From assembly GCF_024346315.1 (NCBI RefSeq), contig NZ_JAGQCS010000005.1:1-64000 (forward strand): 64,000 bases of DNA. The letters are read 5' to 3'. Of the stretch, positions 37,494 through 44,004 are shown one piece after another. How positions within the stretch are numbered: the first letter of the stretch is position 1; every line of letters starts with the position of its first letter. The position numbers were made by a program, and so were the translations under genes. The notes below the pieces were generated by a model, which saw nothing but the letters and a program-made list of their open reading frames with translations, made no database searches and had not been told where the DNA came from. This stretch comes from Cyanobium sp. ATX 6F1 (GTDB lineage: Bacteria; Cyanobacteriota; Cyanobacteriia; PCC-6307; Cyanobiaceae).

Positions 37494-40400
37494 TCAAGCG
37501 GTAGTCGAGCGGCGGATCCGCCAGCGGGCCAACTGCCAGGGGCGCAGCAGCTGCCCATCGCCGGCCGAATCGCCGTGCTGCCCAGGGAAGCCAGCGATCC
37601 GCTCCAGCACCGTCCAGCCCTCCGGCAGGTCGAGCCAGCGACGACAGGGCCCCAGGTTCTGGGCGCTGAGCAGCAGCACGGGCCCCTGGGGCGATGGCCC
37701 CTCGACCTTGAGCCCCAACAACTGCAGATCAGGGTGGCCCAGATGCAGGCCATCGTCCGTTGTGCTCCCTGGGCCTGAGCCGGGCCCGGCCGGCCGCAGC
37801 CAGAGGGGTTCGCGGAAACGCACCGCCTGCTGGGGAACCGCTCCGGCGCGCCAGTTCCCGAGCAGCGGCAACAGCGCCAGCCGCAGCCGTTGATGGCCCC
37901 GATCGGCGCCCGGGTCGGGCCAGGTGGGCCCCCGCAGCAACGACACCCCCAGCCGCTCCGCCGAGGCCGAGACCCCCTGGGGGCCATCGAGCAGCACCGC
38001 CAGTCCACCCGCGTTGCCCGACTGGCTCGCCAGCCAGCTGATCGCCGGCAGCTCCCAGCGACTGCGTTCGCGCGCCATCAGCGCCTCGGCGGGCCGCTCG
38101 ATCACGCCGCCGCTGGTGTCCGCCGCCCAGCGCTCGGCCCCCTGGGCCAGGGGCAGCTCAAGCCGCAGCAGTTCATGGGTCTGCCGCCAGTCCACCGCCA
38201 GGATCAGCTCCACCCAGGGGCAGGCGGCCCGCAGGCGCAGCTCCAGCCGCAGGGCACTGGCGCCGCAGCGTCCCCGCCAACGGAACCCGGCGCAGAGGGG
38301 CCCCTGATCCACGGGCTCGGGGGGACCGTCCCACTCCAGCAGCAAGGGATGGTCGCGGTAGTCATCGGCCAGATCCCAGGCATCCCAGAAGGCGCCGCGA
38401 TCGCGCCAGCGGCGCCACTCCAGGGGCGACTCCAGTTGGGCGACTCCGTGCTGGCTCCAGAGCTGCTCCAGCCCCTGGGGCCCCACCTGAACGGACACCA
38501 GGCCGTTGCCGAGCCAGTGGCGGCCCTCCATGCCGCCGGGGCGGCTGATCACGGGACCATCGATCGCCGCCGGGGCTTCACCAGCAAGCTCTGGGTGGCC
38601 CCCAAGGGAACGGCGCTCCAGGGACAGTGCCGCCACCCCCTGGGGCCCGCTCAGCTGCACCCAGTCGCCGCCGGATGGCGCCGGCTGCCGCGGCAGGGAC
38701 GAGCCATCGGCCAGGCGCCAGTCGCCCCGGGGCAAGCGCACGGTGAGCGGCGTGGCCCCCAGGGCCTGCAGCTGCACCAGCCACCAGGCGTTCGCCACCG
38801 GCCGGGGTCGGGGCGCCAACCAGCGCCCTAGGGCCCCATCCCGCTGGCGCCGCGCCAGGCGCCGGGCCTGACGCCATTGGGGCTCGGCCTGCTCGAACAC
38901 CTCCGGCACCGCCGTGCCTGGAAGGATGTCGTGGAACTGCTGAAACAGCAGCGTGCGCCAGGCCTCCGTGAGCTCGGCCCGCCCGGCGGCCTCCGTTGCG
39001 GAACGGCCCTCAGGGCCGTGGGACGCAGCGCTTCGGAGCGCCTCCGCCAACTCCGCCTCCCGCAGCAGCCGTTCCAGGCTGCGGTTGTGGCGCTTCTGAT
39101 CAGGGCGGCTGGTGGCGATGCCCCTGTGCAGTTCCAGGTAGAGCTCATCCCGCCAGATCGGCAGCTGAGCCTGGTGGGGCTCCAGCTCCGCCAGGTAGGC
39201 GCGCAGGCTGCCGTGGCGCTGGGGCGCCGCCAGCGGTTGCCCCTGCCAAAGCTCCAGTTGCTCCAGCATCTCGGCGGTGGGGCCGCCGCCGTGGTCCCCC
39301 ACCCCTGGCAGCCAGAGGGCGGTCTCCAGGCCGGTGGAGCGCCGCCAGCTCTGGCGGTAGCGCTCCATCGCCACCGGATCGCCGTCCGTGCCGATCGGGG
39401 CCGTCATCAGGGAGAGCACCTCGGCGCCGCAACGGCTGCGCCAGCGGAACAGCCGATGGGGGAAGGGATTGGTGGCGTTCCAAGCCAGCTTGTGGGTGCA
39501 GAACCAGCGCACCCCACTGGCGGCGGCCACGGCCGGCAGACCGGCCCCGAAGCCGAAGCTGTCGGGCAGCCAGGCCACGGAGGGCTCCCACTCAGGGAAA
39601 CGGGAGCGGCTGTAGGCCTGCCCCTCCTCGAACTGGCGCCAGAGGGAGGCCGTCGCGATCAGCACGCAGTCGCTTTCCACCCAGGGACCGTTGATCGGCT
39701 CCCAGCGGCCGGCGACCATCGCCGCGCGAATCGCCGCAAACAGCGCCGGGCGGTGGCGCTCCAACCAGGCGTAGAGCGCCGGGGTGGAGTGGCCGAAATG
39801 GAGCTGGGGATGGCGCTCCATCAGATCCAGGGCGGAGCGGAAGGTGCGCTCCGCCGCCTGCCAGGTGTCGGCCACCGGCCACAGCCAGGCCAGATCCAGA
39901 TGGGCATGGCCGAGCACATGAAACCCGGGCTCAGCAGGCGAGGGCGCCATCCCCCTGAGCTGTTCACGCAGGAGCTCCAGACCAGCGGCCCGCTCGGACG
40001 GGGAGGCTGGATCGAGGGCCGCCAGCCGCTCGGCCAGTGGGCCTGGGGTGCCCTCGCTCTCCGCCCGCAGGACCACGAGCTCCAGGGACTGGGCCAGCAG
40101 CACCCCGTGGGGATCGCCTGAGCCCGTGGGCTCGAGCTCGAGGCGGCTTTGGATCAAGGCGCCATCGTCATGGAGTGGGCTGCGCAGGGTGAGCGCCAGC
40201 TCCAGGGGCTCACCTGCCCACCAGCGCTCGGGCAGGGTCCAGCGGCAGGCGGTGTCGAACAGATCGCCGCGGTGCACGCTCTCCCCGTCGACCCGCAGCT
40301 CGGCCGCCTCGGCCCACCAACGCAACACCAGGCGGGCCCGCAGCTGGCCCCAGGCCCGCCAGGGCTCCGGGCAGAGGAGGCGCTGGCTCAGCCGCAGCTC

Positions 40401-40598
40401 CTGGCCGCCGCGGGGCCAGATGATCAGGCCCCGGGCGAACCAGTCGGGCCGGTGCCGCCGGCCCCAGGGGTCGTCGATGGCGAGCGACTCCAGGCCGCCA
40501 GGGCGCTGCACCCGCCAGTGGGGATGGAGATCGCGGCTGGACCGTGACCGAAACGTTTCAATCCAGGGGTGAAGCACCGTCTCTGGGCCCTCAGCCAT
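37494..40598 (-). CDS. Alpha-mannosidase, glycoside hydrolase family 38
   Basis: A 1034-residue retaining exo-mannosidase-type enzyme with zinc. An N-terminal lectin-like part (~1-225) precedes the catalytic domain: HVLGHAHLDLAWLWP (Zn His/Asp), WLPDSFGFGAGLP (nucleophile Asp) and VGDHGGGPTAEML (Zn His). The central three-helix bundle and a C-terminal beta-sandwich (LGNGLVSVQVGPQGLEQLWS ...) complete the fold. No signal peptide, so it is probably cytosolic; substrate could be internal glycans or glucosylglycerol/mannose-type reserves (guess). It lies between psbN and psbI. Confidence 0.92.
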   Translation of the reverse strand: MAEGPETVLHPWIETFRSRSSRDLHPHWRVQRPGGLESLAIDDPWGRRHRPDWFARGLIIWPRGGQELRLSQRLLCPEPWRAWGQLRARLVLRWWAEAAELRVDGESVHRGDLFDTACRWTLPERWWAGEPLELALTLRSPLHDDGALIQSRLELEPTGSGDPHGVLLAQSLELVVLRAESEGTPGPLAERLAALDPASPSERAAGLELLREQLRGMAPSPAEPGFHVLGHAHLDLAWLWPVADTWQAAERTFRSALDLMERHPQLHFGHSTPALYAWLERHRPALFAAIRAAMVAGRWEPINGPWVESDCVLIATASLWRQFEEGQAYSRSRFPEWEPSVAWLPDSFGFGAGLPAVAAASGVRWFCTHKLAWNATNPFPHRLFRWRSRCGAEVLSLMTAPIGTDGDPVAMERYRQSWRRSTGLETALWLPGVGDHGGGPTAEMLEQLELWQGQPLAAPQRHGSLRAYLAELEPHQAQLPIWRDELYLELHRGIATSRPDQKRHNRSLERLLREAELAEALRSAASHGPEGRSATEAAGRAELTEAWRTLLFQQFHDILPGTAVPEVFEQAEPQWRQARRLARRQRDGALGRWLAPRPRPVANAWWLVQLQALGATPLTVRLPRGDWRLADGSSLPRQPAPSGGDWVQLSGPQGVAALSLERRSLGGHPELAGEAPAAIDGPVISRPGGMEGRHWLGNGLVSVQVGPQGLEQLWSQHGVAQLESPLEWRRWRDRGAFWDAWDLADDYRDHPLLLEWDGPPEPVDQGPLCAGFRWRGRCGASALRLELRLRAACPWVELILAVDWRQTHELLRLELPLAQGAERWAADTSGGVIERPAEALMARERSRWELPAISWLASQSGNAGGLAVLLDGPQGVSASAERLGVSLLRGPTWPDPGADRGHQRLRLALLPLLGNWRAGAVPQQAVRFREPLWLRPAGPGSGPGSTTDDGLHLGHPDLQLLGLKVEGPSPQGPVLLLSAQNLGPCRRWLDLPEGWTVLERIAGFPGQHGDSAGDGQLLRPWQLARWRIRRSTTA

Positions 40599-40818: not shown

Positions 40819-40941
40819 GACAATCTCGGCGTCCGTTGAACCCTGCCGGCTCCTTACCCGTGGCCGGTCTGATCACCCGCCCCGGGCACGCTTGATTCCC
40901 GTCGTTGCCATGGGAGGATCAGCCCCGTTTCGGCAGGCTTG

Positions 40942-43900
40942 GTGAGCGAACGTCTTCCAGCTGGGTTGGCCCTGGGCCTGCTTGGGACGCTTGCCTGCGT
41001 CGGATTCACCCCCAGCGTTCGCGCTGAAAACCTCGGCGATGGTGGCGCCGAGAGCGCGGAACCCGCCCCAGCCTTGAATGCGGGGCCATCCCTGCCCCTG
41101 GGGCCGCCACCGCTGCCGCCTCTCCCCAGCGCTGAGCAGCCCAACACCCCAGCCCCCAGCGGGGGCGCCACGAAAGCAAACGAGCGCACCGCCTCCAACA
41201 GCTTCCCCGCCGAAATCCAGCTCACGGCCGATTCCCAGGCCCTCGACACCCTGCTCAACCGGGCCGTGGCCACGGGCAAGGTGCGGGCCCTGCTGGCGGG
41301 GGGTCGCATCCTTGCTGATCGGGTCGAATACGACTCGATCAGCGGCAGCCTCTATGCCAGCGGAACGGTGCGTTTCCAGCGGGGCAACCAATACCTGCAG
41401 GCCAGCCGCCTGCGTTACAACCTCAACGAGCAGCGGGGTGAGGTCGAGGAGGTCTACGGCTACCTCGATCTGGAGCAATCGAAGCAGGATTTCGATCTCG
41501 AGGCGATCCCCAGCCTGCCCCTGGGACCGGAGCAGCCGATGGCCTGCCCCCCCAAGGTGCCGCCGGTGCCCAATTGGCATCCCTACCCCTGGGCCGCCAC
41601 CCTCTGGGGCGGCCAGGCCATCGACACCAACTTCGGCCAGACCTTCCTGTTCCAAGGAAGGATGCGGCCGGAATACCTGCTGGGGGTCGGTCTCAACCGC
41701 CGCCTCTACAAAGCCGGTCCGATCGCCCTGGAATTCGACTCCACCTTGATGGGCCACCGGGCCGAACCCGACCGGGGCGGTGGCTTCAACCAGGCGGTGC
41801 CTTTCTCCCAGAACCCCGGCCAGGCGTTCGGCGAAATCACGTTGGGCGTCGGCTTCCGGGCCTGGCTCTTGCCCAGGCTCAGCGTCGCCTTCGTCCAGGG
41901 AGTCAGCCTGCTGAGCCAGAACAGCCTCTATGAAAAAACCTACCGAGAGAACTACAGCCAGTTCCTCAATTACCTGGGCTTCGAGATCGAGGCGCTGGTT
42001 TCGCCCCAGTGGTCGCTGGTGGGACGGATTCACCACCGCTCGGGCGCCTTCGGGGTCTACGGCGGTGTGAGCGAGGGCAGCAACGCCTACCTGCTGGGTC
42101 TGCGTTACCGCTTCGGCAGTGATGCGAACCCTAAAGGGCCGGTGCAGGTGGCCCTGGCCCCTCCCCTGGGCTGCCCGGATCCCGAACGCGGCAAGCGCCG
42201 GCGGGTGCTCACCCTCGCCGATGCGCTTGAGCAGGTGGCCATGGGGCCTCCCACCAGCAGCCCGCCGTCAGCGGCTGGAAACGCCCAGGGCCCCAGCGCA
42301 ACTCCGAGCGCACCCGGCTCGGGCCTGGCCACCCAACCCATCAGCCCCCAGGAGCAAGAAGCGGCTCGCTACAAAGCGATCCAGACCATCGACCAGCGCA
42401 TCGGTTCAATCACCCAGCGCCAGGGCCTCACCGCCGGTCGCCGCTTTGGCGCCGGCAGCAACGGCGTCTTCACCTCAACGGACACAGAGGTTTCCTTCGG
42501 TGGCGTACGCCCGGCCCAGATTCAGTCCCAGAACACGGCCGCCAACAAGAAACTGGTGAGCGGCACCGTGGGCCGCTGGCGCTTCCAGGCCGCCAAACTC
42601 ACGATCACACCCGATGGCTGGCATGCCGACCGCATCGGCATGACCAACGATCCCTTCACCCCGGCCCAGACCTGGCTGGATGCTGAAAACGTCGTGGCCC
42701 GAACGCAGCCCAACGGCGACATCCTGATCAGCTCCGACCGCAACCGCCTCATCCTTGAGGATCAGCTTCCGATCCCGGTCAGCCGCAACCAGCGCATCCA
42801 GAAGAAACAGCAGGTGGAGAACCGCTGGGTGCTTGGCAACGACGGCAAAGACAGGGACGGCAACTTCATCGGCAGGCAGCTGAGGCCGATCAAGATCGGC
42901 TCCACGGGAGAACTTGCGCTTCAGCCCCAGTTCCTCCTGCGCAGGGCTGTCCTAGGAACCACCGACAGCTACGTGCTCCCGGGCCAATCGGCCGGTGCCA
43001 GCCCCAGCGAACAGCCGGCCGAGTTCTCTGATCTGTTTGGCCTGGTGGCCAACTACACGGGGCCGCTGCTGGGTTTCACCAGCGACGCCAACTTGAGCAT
43101 CTCCACCTTCAACCCCAAGAACTTCGCCAACGGCACCCGCAGCTGGGGCGATCTCCAGCGGGATGTCCGCTTGCCCCTGGTCGGCACCAGCACCGCCCGG
43201 ATCTTCGGGGCCTACCGCTTCCGCACCTGGAACGGCTCCCTGGGAGAACAGGACATCTACTCCGCCTATGGCGTTTCCCTGGAAAAACGCGGGACGTTGC
43301 CCAACTGGGGGCGCCTGAGCAACAGCTACATCTGGCGGATGGGGGTCGGCAGCTTCCAGGGCAACCAGTTCGAGAGCACCAACCTGACTGATCTCTGGCG
43401 TGGCAGCGGCGTGATCGCCATCAACAGCTCCCTGCCGGTGTGGACCGGAAAGCCCCTGCCGCTCACGGCCACCGAGGCCTACCGCAACGTGGGCACCGCG
43501 ATTGTGCCTGGGCTCACCTTCAACACCAACCTCACCGTCATCGCGGCCTACTACGGCACCGGGGACCACCAGAACCAGTTCAGCTTCTCGGCCGGCCCCA
43601 CCCTCACCCTGGGCCATTTCAGCAAGCCCTTCCTGGATTACACCCAGCTCACCATCACCGGCGGCGGCACCCTGCTCAACGGACTAAGTCCGTTCAGCTT
43701 TGATCGGGCCGCAGATCTGGCCACCATCGGGGTGGGCCTCAGCCAGCAGATCTACGGCCCCCTGGTGCTCAGCGGCGGCATCGGCTTCAACGTGGATGGG
43801 CGTTCGCCCAACTACGGCGACCTCACGGGCTCCTACGTGGAGCTCAAGTGGCAGCGACGCGCCTATGAGTTCAGCATCTACTACAGCCCCTACGAACAAC

Positions 43901-44004
43901 TGGGTGGCGTGCGGGTGAAGCTCAACGACTTCAGCTTCAGCGGCACGGGGGTGCCGTTCGTGCCCGTCCACCCCGGCAGTGATGTGGGCCGGCGGCCCTT
44001 CTAA
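40942..44004 (+). CDS. LptD/OstA-like outer-membrane protein (DUF3769) with PagL-like insert
   Basis: A ~1020-residue exported protein. A signal peptide (LALGLLGTLACVGFTPSVRA) and a Pro/Ser linker lead to an OstA/LptA-like beta-jellyroll part ~90-185 (GGRILADRVEYDSISGSLYA, YLQASRLRYNLNEQRGE). A barrel-like insert at ~215-393 carries RIHHRSGAFGVYGG (His364/365, Ser367) and SEGSN, then LLGLRYRF. After a linker comes the DUF3769 beta barrel ~430-1020 (SDLFGLVANYTGPLLGF ... ELKWQRRAYEFSIYYSP). DUF3769 proteins are the likely cyanobacterial LptD, inserting LPS in the outer membrane. GTG 40942 is used; TTG 40939 is also possible. Confidence 0.85.
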   Translation: MSERLPAGLALGLLGTLACVGFTPSVRAENLGDGGAESAEPAPALNAGPSLPLGPPPLPPLPSAEQPNTPAPSGGATKANERTASNSFPAEIQLTADSQALDTLLNRAVATGKVRALLAGGRILADRVEYDSISGSLYASGTVRFQRGNQYLQASRLRYNLNEQRGEVEEVYGYLDLEQSKQDFDLEAIPSLPLGPEQPMACPPKVPPVPNWHPYPWAATLWGGQAIDTNFGQTFLFQGRMRPEYLLGVGLNRRLYKAGPIALEFDSTLMGHRAEPDRGGGFNQAVPFSQNPGQAFGEITLGVGFRAWLLPRLSVAFVQGVSLLSQNSLYEKTYRENYSQFLNYLGFEIEALVSPQWSLVGRIHHRSGAFGVYGGVSEGSNAYLLGLRYRFGSDANPKGPVQVALAPPLGCPDPERGKRRRVLTLADALEQVAMGPPTSSPPSAAGNAQGPSATPSAPGSGLATQPISPQEQEAARYKAIQTIDQRIGSITQRQGLTAGRRFGAGSNGVFTSTDTEVSFGGVRPAQIQSQNTAANKKLVSGTVGRWRFQAAKLTITPDGWHADRIGMTNDPFTPAQTWLDAENVVARTQPNGDILISSDRNRLILEDQLPIPVSRNQRIQKKQQVENRWVLGNDGKDRDGNFIGRQLRPIKIGSTGELALQPQFLLRRAVLGTTDSYVLPGQSAGASPSEQPAEFSDLFGLVANYTGPLLGFTSDANLSISTFNPKNFANGTRSWGDLQRDVRLPLVGTSTARIFGAYRFRTWNGSLGEQDIYSAYGVSLEKRGTLPNWGRLSNSYIWRMGVGSFQGNQFESTNLTDLWRGSGVIAINSSLPVWTGKPLPLTATEAYRNVGTAIVPGLTFNTNLTVIAAYYGTGDHQNQFSFSAGPTLTLGHFSKPFLDYTQLTITGGGTLLNGLSPFSFDRAADLATIGVGLSQQIYGPLVLSGGIGFNVDGRSPNYGDLTGSYVELKWQRRAYEFSIYYSPYEQLGGVRVKLNDFSFSGTGVPFVPVHPGSDVGRRPF

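Follow-up and report, generated by a model that had tools for sequence, protein, structure and literature searches.

LptD is the essential gate for lipopolysaccharide (LPS) in diderm bacteria, and the locus analyzed here, in a window of 64,000 nucleotides from Cyanobium sp. ATX 6F1, raises the question of why an LptD-type protein should carry an extra block between its periplasmic part and its large barrel, and whether this block could be a lipid A deacylase. The open frame (40939-44004, + strand) encodes a protein of 1021 amino acids with a signal-like stretch at the N-terminus. We number residues from the TTG codon at 40939, the next codon, GTG 40942, being an alternative start; the His365-Arg-Ser367 of the original prediction, counted from the GTG, is thus H366-R367-S368 here. 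Residues 124-172 (41308-41454, + strand) match the LptD_N/OstA-like periplasmic sheet (PF03968, E 0.0012) at 19.5 bits, which is below the Pfam cut-off of 20.4, and they form beta strands in the full-length model. Residues 542-998 (42562-43932, + strand) are DUF3769 (PF12600, E 6e-123), which covers the LptD barrel and what is left of the periplasmic beta-sheet; in cyanobacteria, the DUF3769 proteins serve as LptD (PMC4365693). In a fold search with the full-length AlphaFold2 model (pLDDT 73.9), LptD structures occupied ranks 1-12, at low TM-scores of 0.13-0.20. DUF3769 is present in 59 of 60 relatives. The Cyanobium genome encodes LpxC, as do 58 of 60 relatives, so that these bacteria probably synthesize lipid A. 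On the other strand, upstream of lptD, a gene encodes a glycosyl hydrolase family 38 alpha-mannosidase of 1034 amino acids (window 37494-40598, - strand).

The original prediction placed a block of ~178 residues between the OstA-like part and DUF3769 and took it to be a separate eight-strand barrel. The block is real, its barrel portion spanning residues 218-392 (41590-42114, + strand), and the barrel is borne out by structure prediction: modeled in isolation with AlphaFold2 (pLDDT 83.8, pTM 0.78), the block has exactly eight strands according to DSSP (218-229, 241-259, 262-275, 295-311, 314-325, 342-353, 358-368 and 382-392), and all eight recur in the full-length model. Long loops join strands 1-2, 3-4, 5-6 and 7-8, and the remaining loops are short, the pattern expected for a barrel with periplasmic ends. 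The barrel is framed by two cysteines, Cys203 (41545-41547, + strand) and Cys412 (42172-42174, + strand), which are invariant in alignment A4. In 112 of 113 fused proteins, the block has a cysteine on both sides, and 108 contain exactly two cysteines from 60 amino acids upstream of the block to the C-terminal end, making Cys203-Cys412 a candidate disulfide pair. Between the barrel and DUF3769 lies a variable linker (residues 394-541; 42118-42561, + strand), a large part of which has low pLDDT in the full-length model and which is poorly conserved in residues 394-480 (dN/dS 0.46). Measured against the nearest relative, dN/dS for the block is 0.14, the same as for DUF3769, and 28% of its columns are invariant compared with 13% in DUF3769; the segment from strand 7 through the loop to strand 8, with 51% invariant columns, is the most conserved of the regions measured. 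Judging from these alignments, the block is among the best-conserved parts of the LptD-type protein and is under purifying selection, far beyond what would be expected by chance.

Conservation culminates in a set of polar residues. The motif H365-H366-R367-S368 (42031-42042, + strand), at the extracellular end of strand 7, is conserved in 128, 127, 128 and 128 of 128 distinct sequences, respectively, and Asn382 (42082-42084, + strand), at the start of strand 8, in 127. Thus, the H-x-S pair to which the original prediction pointed is indeed conserved across distant homologs; HHRS and the Asn are invariant in a set of 19 sequences that reaches down to 22% identity and includes stand-alone alphaproteobacterial proteins. 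The proposed catalytic acid, the Glu of SEGSN (Glu379; 42073-42075, + strand), did not fare as well, being Glu in only 116 of the 128 sequences and mostly Gly in the others; the conserved equivalent is Asn382. Hydrophobicity alternates in all eight strands, with the even-numbered residues on the hydrophobic side, and by this periodicity, as opposed to model coordinates, the even-numbered H366, S368 and N382 probably face lipid near the extracellular ends of strands 7 and 8. Inward-facing residues at odd-numbered positions, namely, H365, R367, E349, E299 and S323, are also invariant or nearly so, several of them at extracellular strand ends, and one could imagine a hydrolase or transferase that works through these residues, with the outward ones in a supporting role. 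We consider such an enzyme quite unlikely: small barrels, OmpA among them, commonly have networks of charged residues on the inside, and of the two sets, the lipid-facing one is the more unusual.

The site resembles that of PagL (PF09411; PDB 2erv) in individual residues. PagL is likewise an eight-strand outer-membrane barrel, with its catalytic H-x-S toward the extracellular end of strand 7, its His and Ser having the same, lipid-facing strand parity as H366 and S368, and both proteins have Arg three residues ahead of the His and G-x-[E/D/N] where strand 8 begins. There are differences as well: Ser-Asn and an N-x-G loop are invariant in PagL (set A2), whereas the block has S-G and EGSN instead, along with Asn in place of Glu, the additional invariant H365 and R367, and the insertion in LptD. 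In P. aeruginosa PagL, the acidic residue on strand 8 is Glu140. However, among the PF09411 proteins collected, the position matching N382 is occupied by E, D or N (alignment A2), and therefore, Asn382 does not disqualify the block as a PagL-like site.

Could the block then be a true, highly diverged PagL that performs the same 3-O-deacylation? In addition to the shared residues, a profile-profile alignment of the block with PagL is colinear, superimposes H-x-S on H-x-S and scores 30-40, compared with 20-24 for three other barrel families, but this similarity drops to the background once the motif columns are masked. No match of PF09411 to the block was found in 26 members at E up to 10 (Pfam); weak matches (E 0.02) to two alphaproteobacterial relatives involve regions outside the motif. 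The PagL profile prefers other cyanobacterial barrels, with up to 14.0 bits, over the block, with 5.2 bits at best, and the 50 best fold matches of the isolated block do not include 2erv. Membership of the block in the PagL family accordingly received no support from Pfam, NCBIfam, a PDB sequence search, profile-profile comparison or the fold search; no curated model matches the block, and we regard the diverged PagL as improbable. Of the proposed PagL-like barrel, the eight strands and the H-x-S at strand 7 hold, and neither of the outcomes named beforehand as refuting the idea, a model without a separate eight-strand barrel or unconserved His/Ser, was observed. The assignment to PagL, whether by sequence or as the best fold match, is not supported. 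The resemblance amounts to a handful of residues in the same place on a common fold, resulting from either convergence or very remote kinship. It is better to speak of an undescribed family of barrels whose site is PagL-like, and the block may work like PagL without being one. Sub-threshold matches to DUF3187, OMP_b-brl, DUF3886 and IceA2 (7xfp) are weak and were taken as generic barrel or chance matches.

The closest solved folds to the isolated block are OmpA, Ail, OmpW, OmpX and NspA, with 8-16% sequence identity in the matches; to our knowledge, none of these barrels has a conserved lipid-facing H-x-S/N site. Such a generic OmpA-like fold, the covalent fusion to LptD with conserved flanking cysteines, and conservation as strong as that of LptD itself are compatible with a non-enzymatic accessory barrel that docks on the LptD barrel and aids in assembly, in opening the gate or in binding LPS at the exit, perhaps replacing a partner such as LptE, with HHRS...N binding an LPS sugar or shaping the interface. 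Pure docking, however, leaves the invariant lipid-facing H-x-S plus N unexplained.

Two natural variants bear on both readings. A fused copy in a genome that is 62% complete (L010, genome G023) combines H366Q with N382T (HQRS, with T for N), and another fused copy (L256, G592) has KHQAR in place of HHRSG (S368A) and retains the Asn; otherwise, both frames are intact. By sequence, these are candidate natural inactive versions. Because the barrel is kept in these two lineages despite the replaced motif residues, which favors an accessory barrel, the barrel can fold without the motif, and this in turn suggests that the motif is maintained for function rather than for folding. That L010 changes H366 and N382 together and L256 loses Ser368 with its neighbors, with the frames intact, counts for a PagL-like site. 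In any case, going by these sequences, the barrel is able to persist in a lineage without an intact site.

As the original prediction anticipated, most of the sampled LptD proteins of other cyanobacteria lack the block. With the DUF3769 form of LptD in cyanobacteria, the Cyanobium protein has in common DUF3769, a putative LptD_N-like sheet and LptD structures as the best full-length fold matches; the inserted barrel sets it apart. The block was detected in 168 of 300 genomes sampled from Cyanobiaceae and is rare outside this family: in a class-wide sample of 390 genomes, it was present in 40, of which 35 are Cyanobiaceae. Named carriers include Cyanobium, Synechococcus, Vulcanococcus and Prochlorococcus sp. 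MIT 0701. Among the streamlined, Prochlorococcus-size genomes sampled, none has the block. Several sampled genomes are incomplete drafts, and single absences may be gaps. One sequence titled Bifidobacterium breve (L057, CALPNT020000004.1) encodes a cyanobacterial LptD with the barrel, and the name looks wrong.

The barrel with its HHRS...N motif also occurs on its own, without LptD fusion, as secreted "hypothetical proteins" of a few other cyanobacteria (L026, L178-L181) and on alphaproteobacterial plasmids (L170-L172, L175), in Aminobacter, Chelativorans, Skermanella and Agrobacterium. Given these relatives, the block is, by sequence comparison, a member of an undescribed barrel family that exists outside LptD as well. 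Because stand-alone copies are found in G047, where LptD lacks the block, in alphaproteobacteria and, as a separate gene, in genus g31, contact with LptD is not required, which argues against the accessory barrel. The neighborhoods of the stand-alone copies in G047 and on plasmids contain no consistent partner gene: the G047 copy adjoins an isoleucyl-tRNA synthetase-like frame, and the plasmid copies are located beside unrelated genes. On plasmid pSR7 of Aminobacter sp. SR38 (L173:3212-6111), a stand-alone HHRS barrel gene is interrupted by an IS21-family insertion (istA/istB). A phage origin of the barrel was considered, and neither a phage match nor a PHROG match was found.

In the phylogenetic tree, the fused copies form one group (support 95/92), within which the stand-alone-type copy L025 is nested; the fork that places L025 there has support of 88/85, and L025 is a long branch. 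In all five genomes of genus g31 sampled, which include that of L025, a stand-alone-type copy is located outside an LptD frame of normal length. The g31 copies (L025/L184, L257-L260) share an added Cys-containing loop (CIKACDNN) ahead of strand 8. The sole g31 LptD read, that of G031 (L182), has no block and retains both flanking cysteines; given this block-free LptD with its two cysteines and the stand-alone-type copies, the barrel probably left LptD in this genus and became a separate gene. The LptD of G016 (L163) has the same block-free scar with both cysteines, and no replacement stand-alone barrel was detected in the G016 genome. In G009, which branches first in the family, the LptD (L183) could represent either a scar or the state before the insertion. 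L182, L163 and L183 all retain the two cysteines and short spacers (ACP...GCP), which looks like an excision of the barrel. By these data, a single entry of the barrel into LptD, or about one, seems to have taken place in Cyanobiaceae, followed by several losses. That the block was lost repeatedly while LptD stayed is a further argument against an accessory role, which we nevertheless keep as a serious, if less than even, possibility.

Taking these lines of evidence together, a PagL-like lipid A hydrolase acting beside newly inserted LPS seems to be the likeliest function of the block, even though we put its chances somewhat below even. The architecture, the barrel, its conservation, the stand-alone relatives and the repeated loss were computed; catalysis, the substrate and a benefit of proximity to LptD are what we infer from them and may apply. 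In this LptD, a complete eight-strand barrel has been inserted into the periplasmic beta-sheet, between the two conserved cysteines, an arrangement that is topologically workable because the two ends of a barrel with an even number of strands both lie in the periplasm. The chain would run from the periplasmic sheet through the small barrel in the membrane and back to the sheet, and then into the large LptD barrel. In the most likely mechanism, that of a PagL-like esterase, His366, oriented by Asn382, would activate Ser368 to remove an ester-linked acyl chain from outer-leaflet lipid A, the fusion to LptD placing the small barrel beside newly inserted LPS. Several observations go against a PagL-like esterase, namely, the lack of a PagL match to the block in Pfam and among the top 50 folds, the preference of the PagL profile for other barrels, the missing Asn after Ser and N-x-G loop, the effect of masking the motif columns, the site-altered lineages that keep the barrel, and the inward-facing invariant residues, which could be the real functional center. 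The complete scenario, in which an undescribed, PagL-convergent family of outer-membrane lipid hydrolases was inserted into picocyanobacterial LptD to trim incoming LPS and was then uncoupled, inactivated or discarded in several lineages, is accordingly tentative, and we rate it on a par with the accessory barrel.

If the hydrolase scenario is true, a single polypeptide would couple LPS insertion to LPS remodeling, and the family concerned, with Synechococcus and Prochlorococcus as members, contains some of the most abundant phototrophs. As far as the sequences indicate, the LptD of marine and freshwater picocyanobacteria carries an extra small barrel, which may be an undescribed lipid-trimming enzyme. 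The present analysis names an uncurated barrel family and supplies precise residues for mutation, and the block-free, site-altered and split natural versions allow lipid A chemistry, outer-membrane permeability, and interactions with phages or grazers to be compared. Correlating the block with lipid A synthesis was uninformative, LpxC being near-universal with or without the block. The primary structure paper on the lipid A of marine Synechococcus reportedly describes tri-acylated forms mixed with tetra-acylated ones, a mixture that would be consistent with partial trimming. For strains WH8102 and CC9311, which may carry the block, reviews give a lipid A with four acyl chains and no phosphate (PMC4113827; PMC4515613). 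This number of chains does not point to extensive trimming and counts against the PagL-like esterase. Genuine PF09411 (PagL) proteins do exist in cyanobacteria outside Cyanobiaceae, in 2 of 116 genomes sampled (L138:1486-2406 and L139:1489-2307; Pfam).
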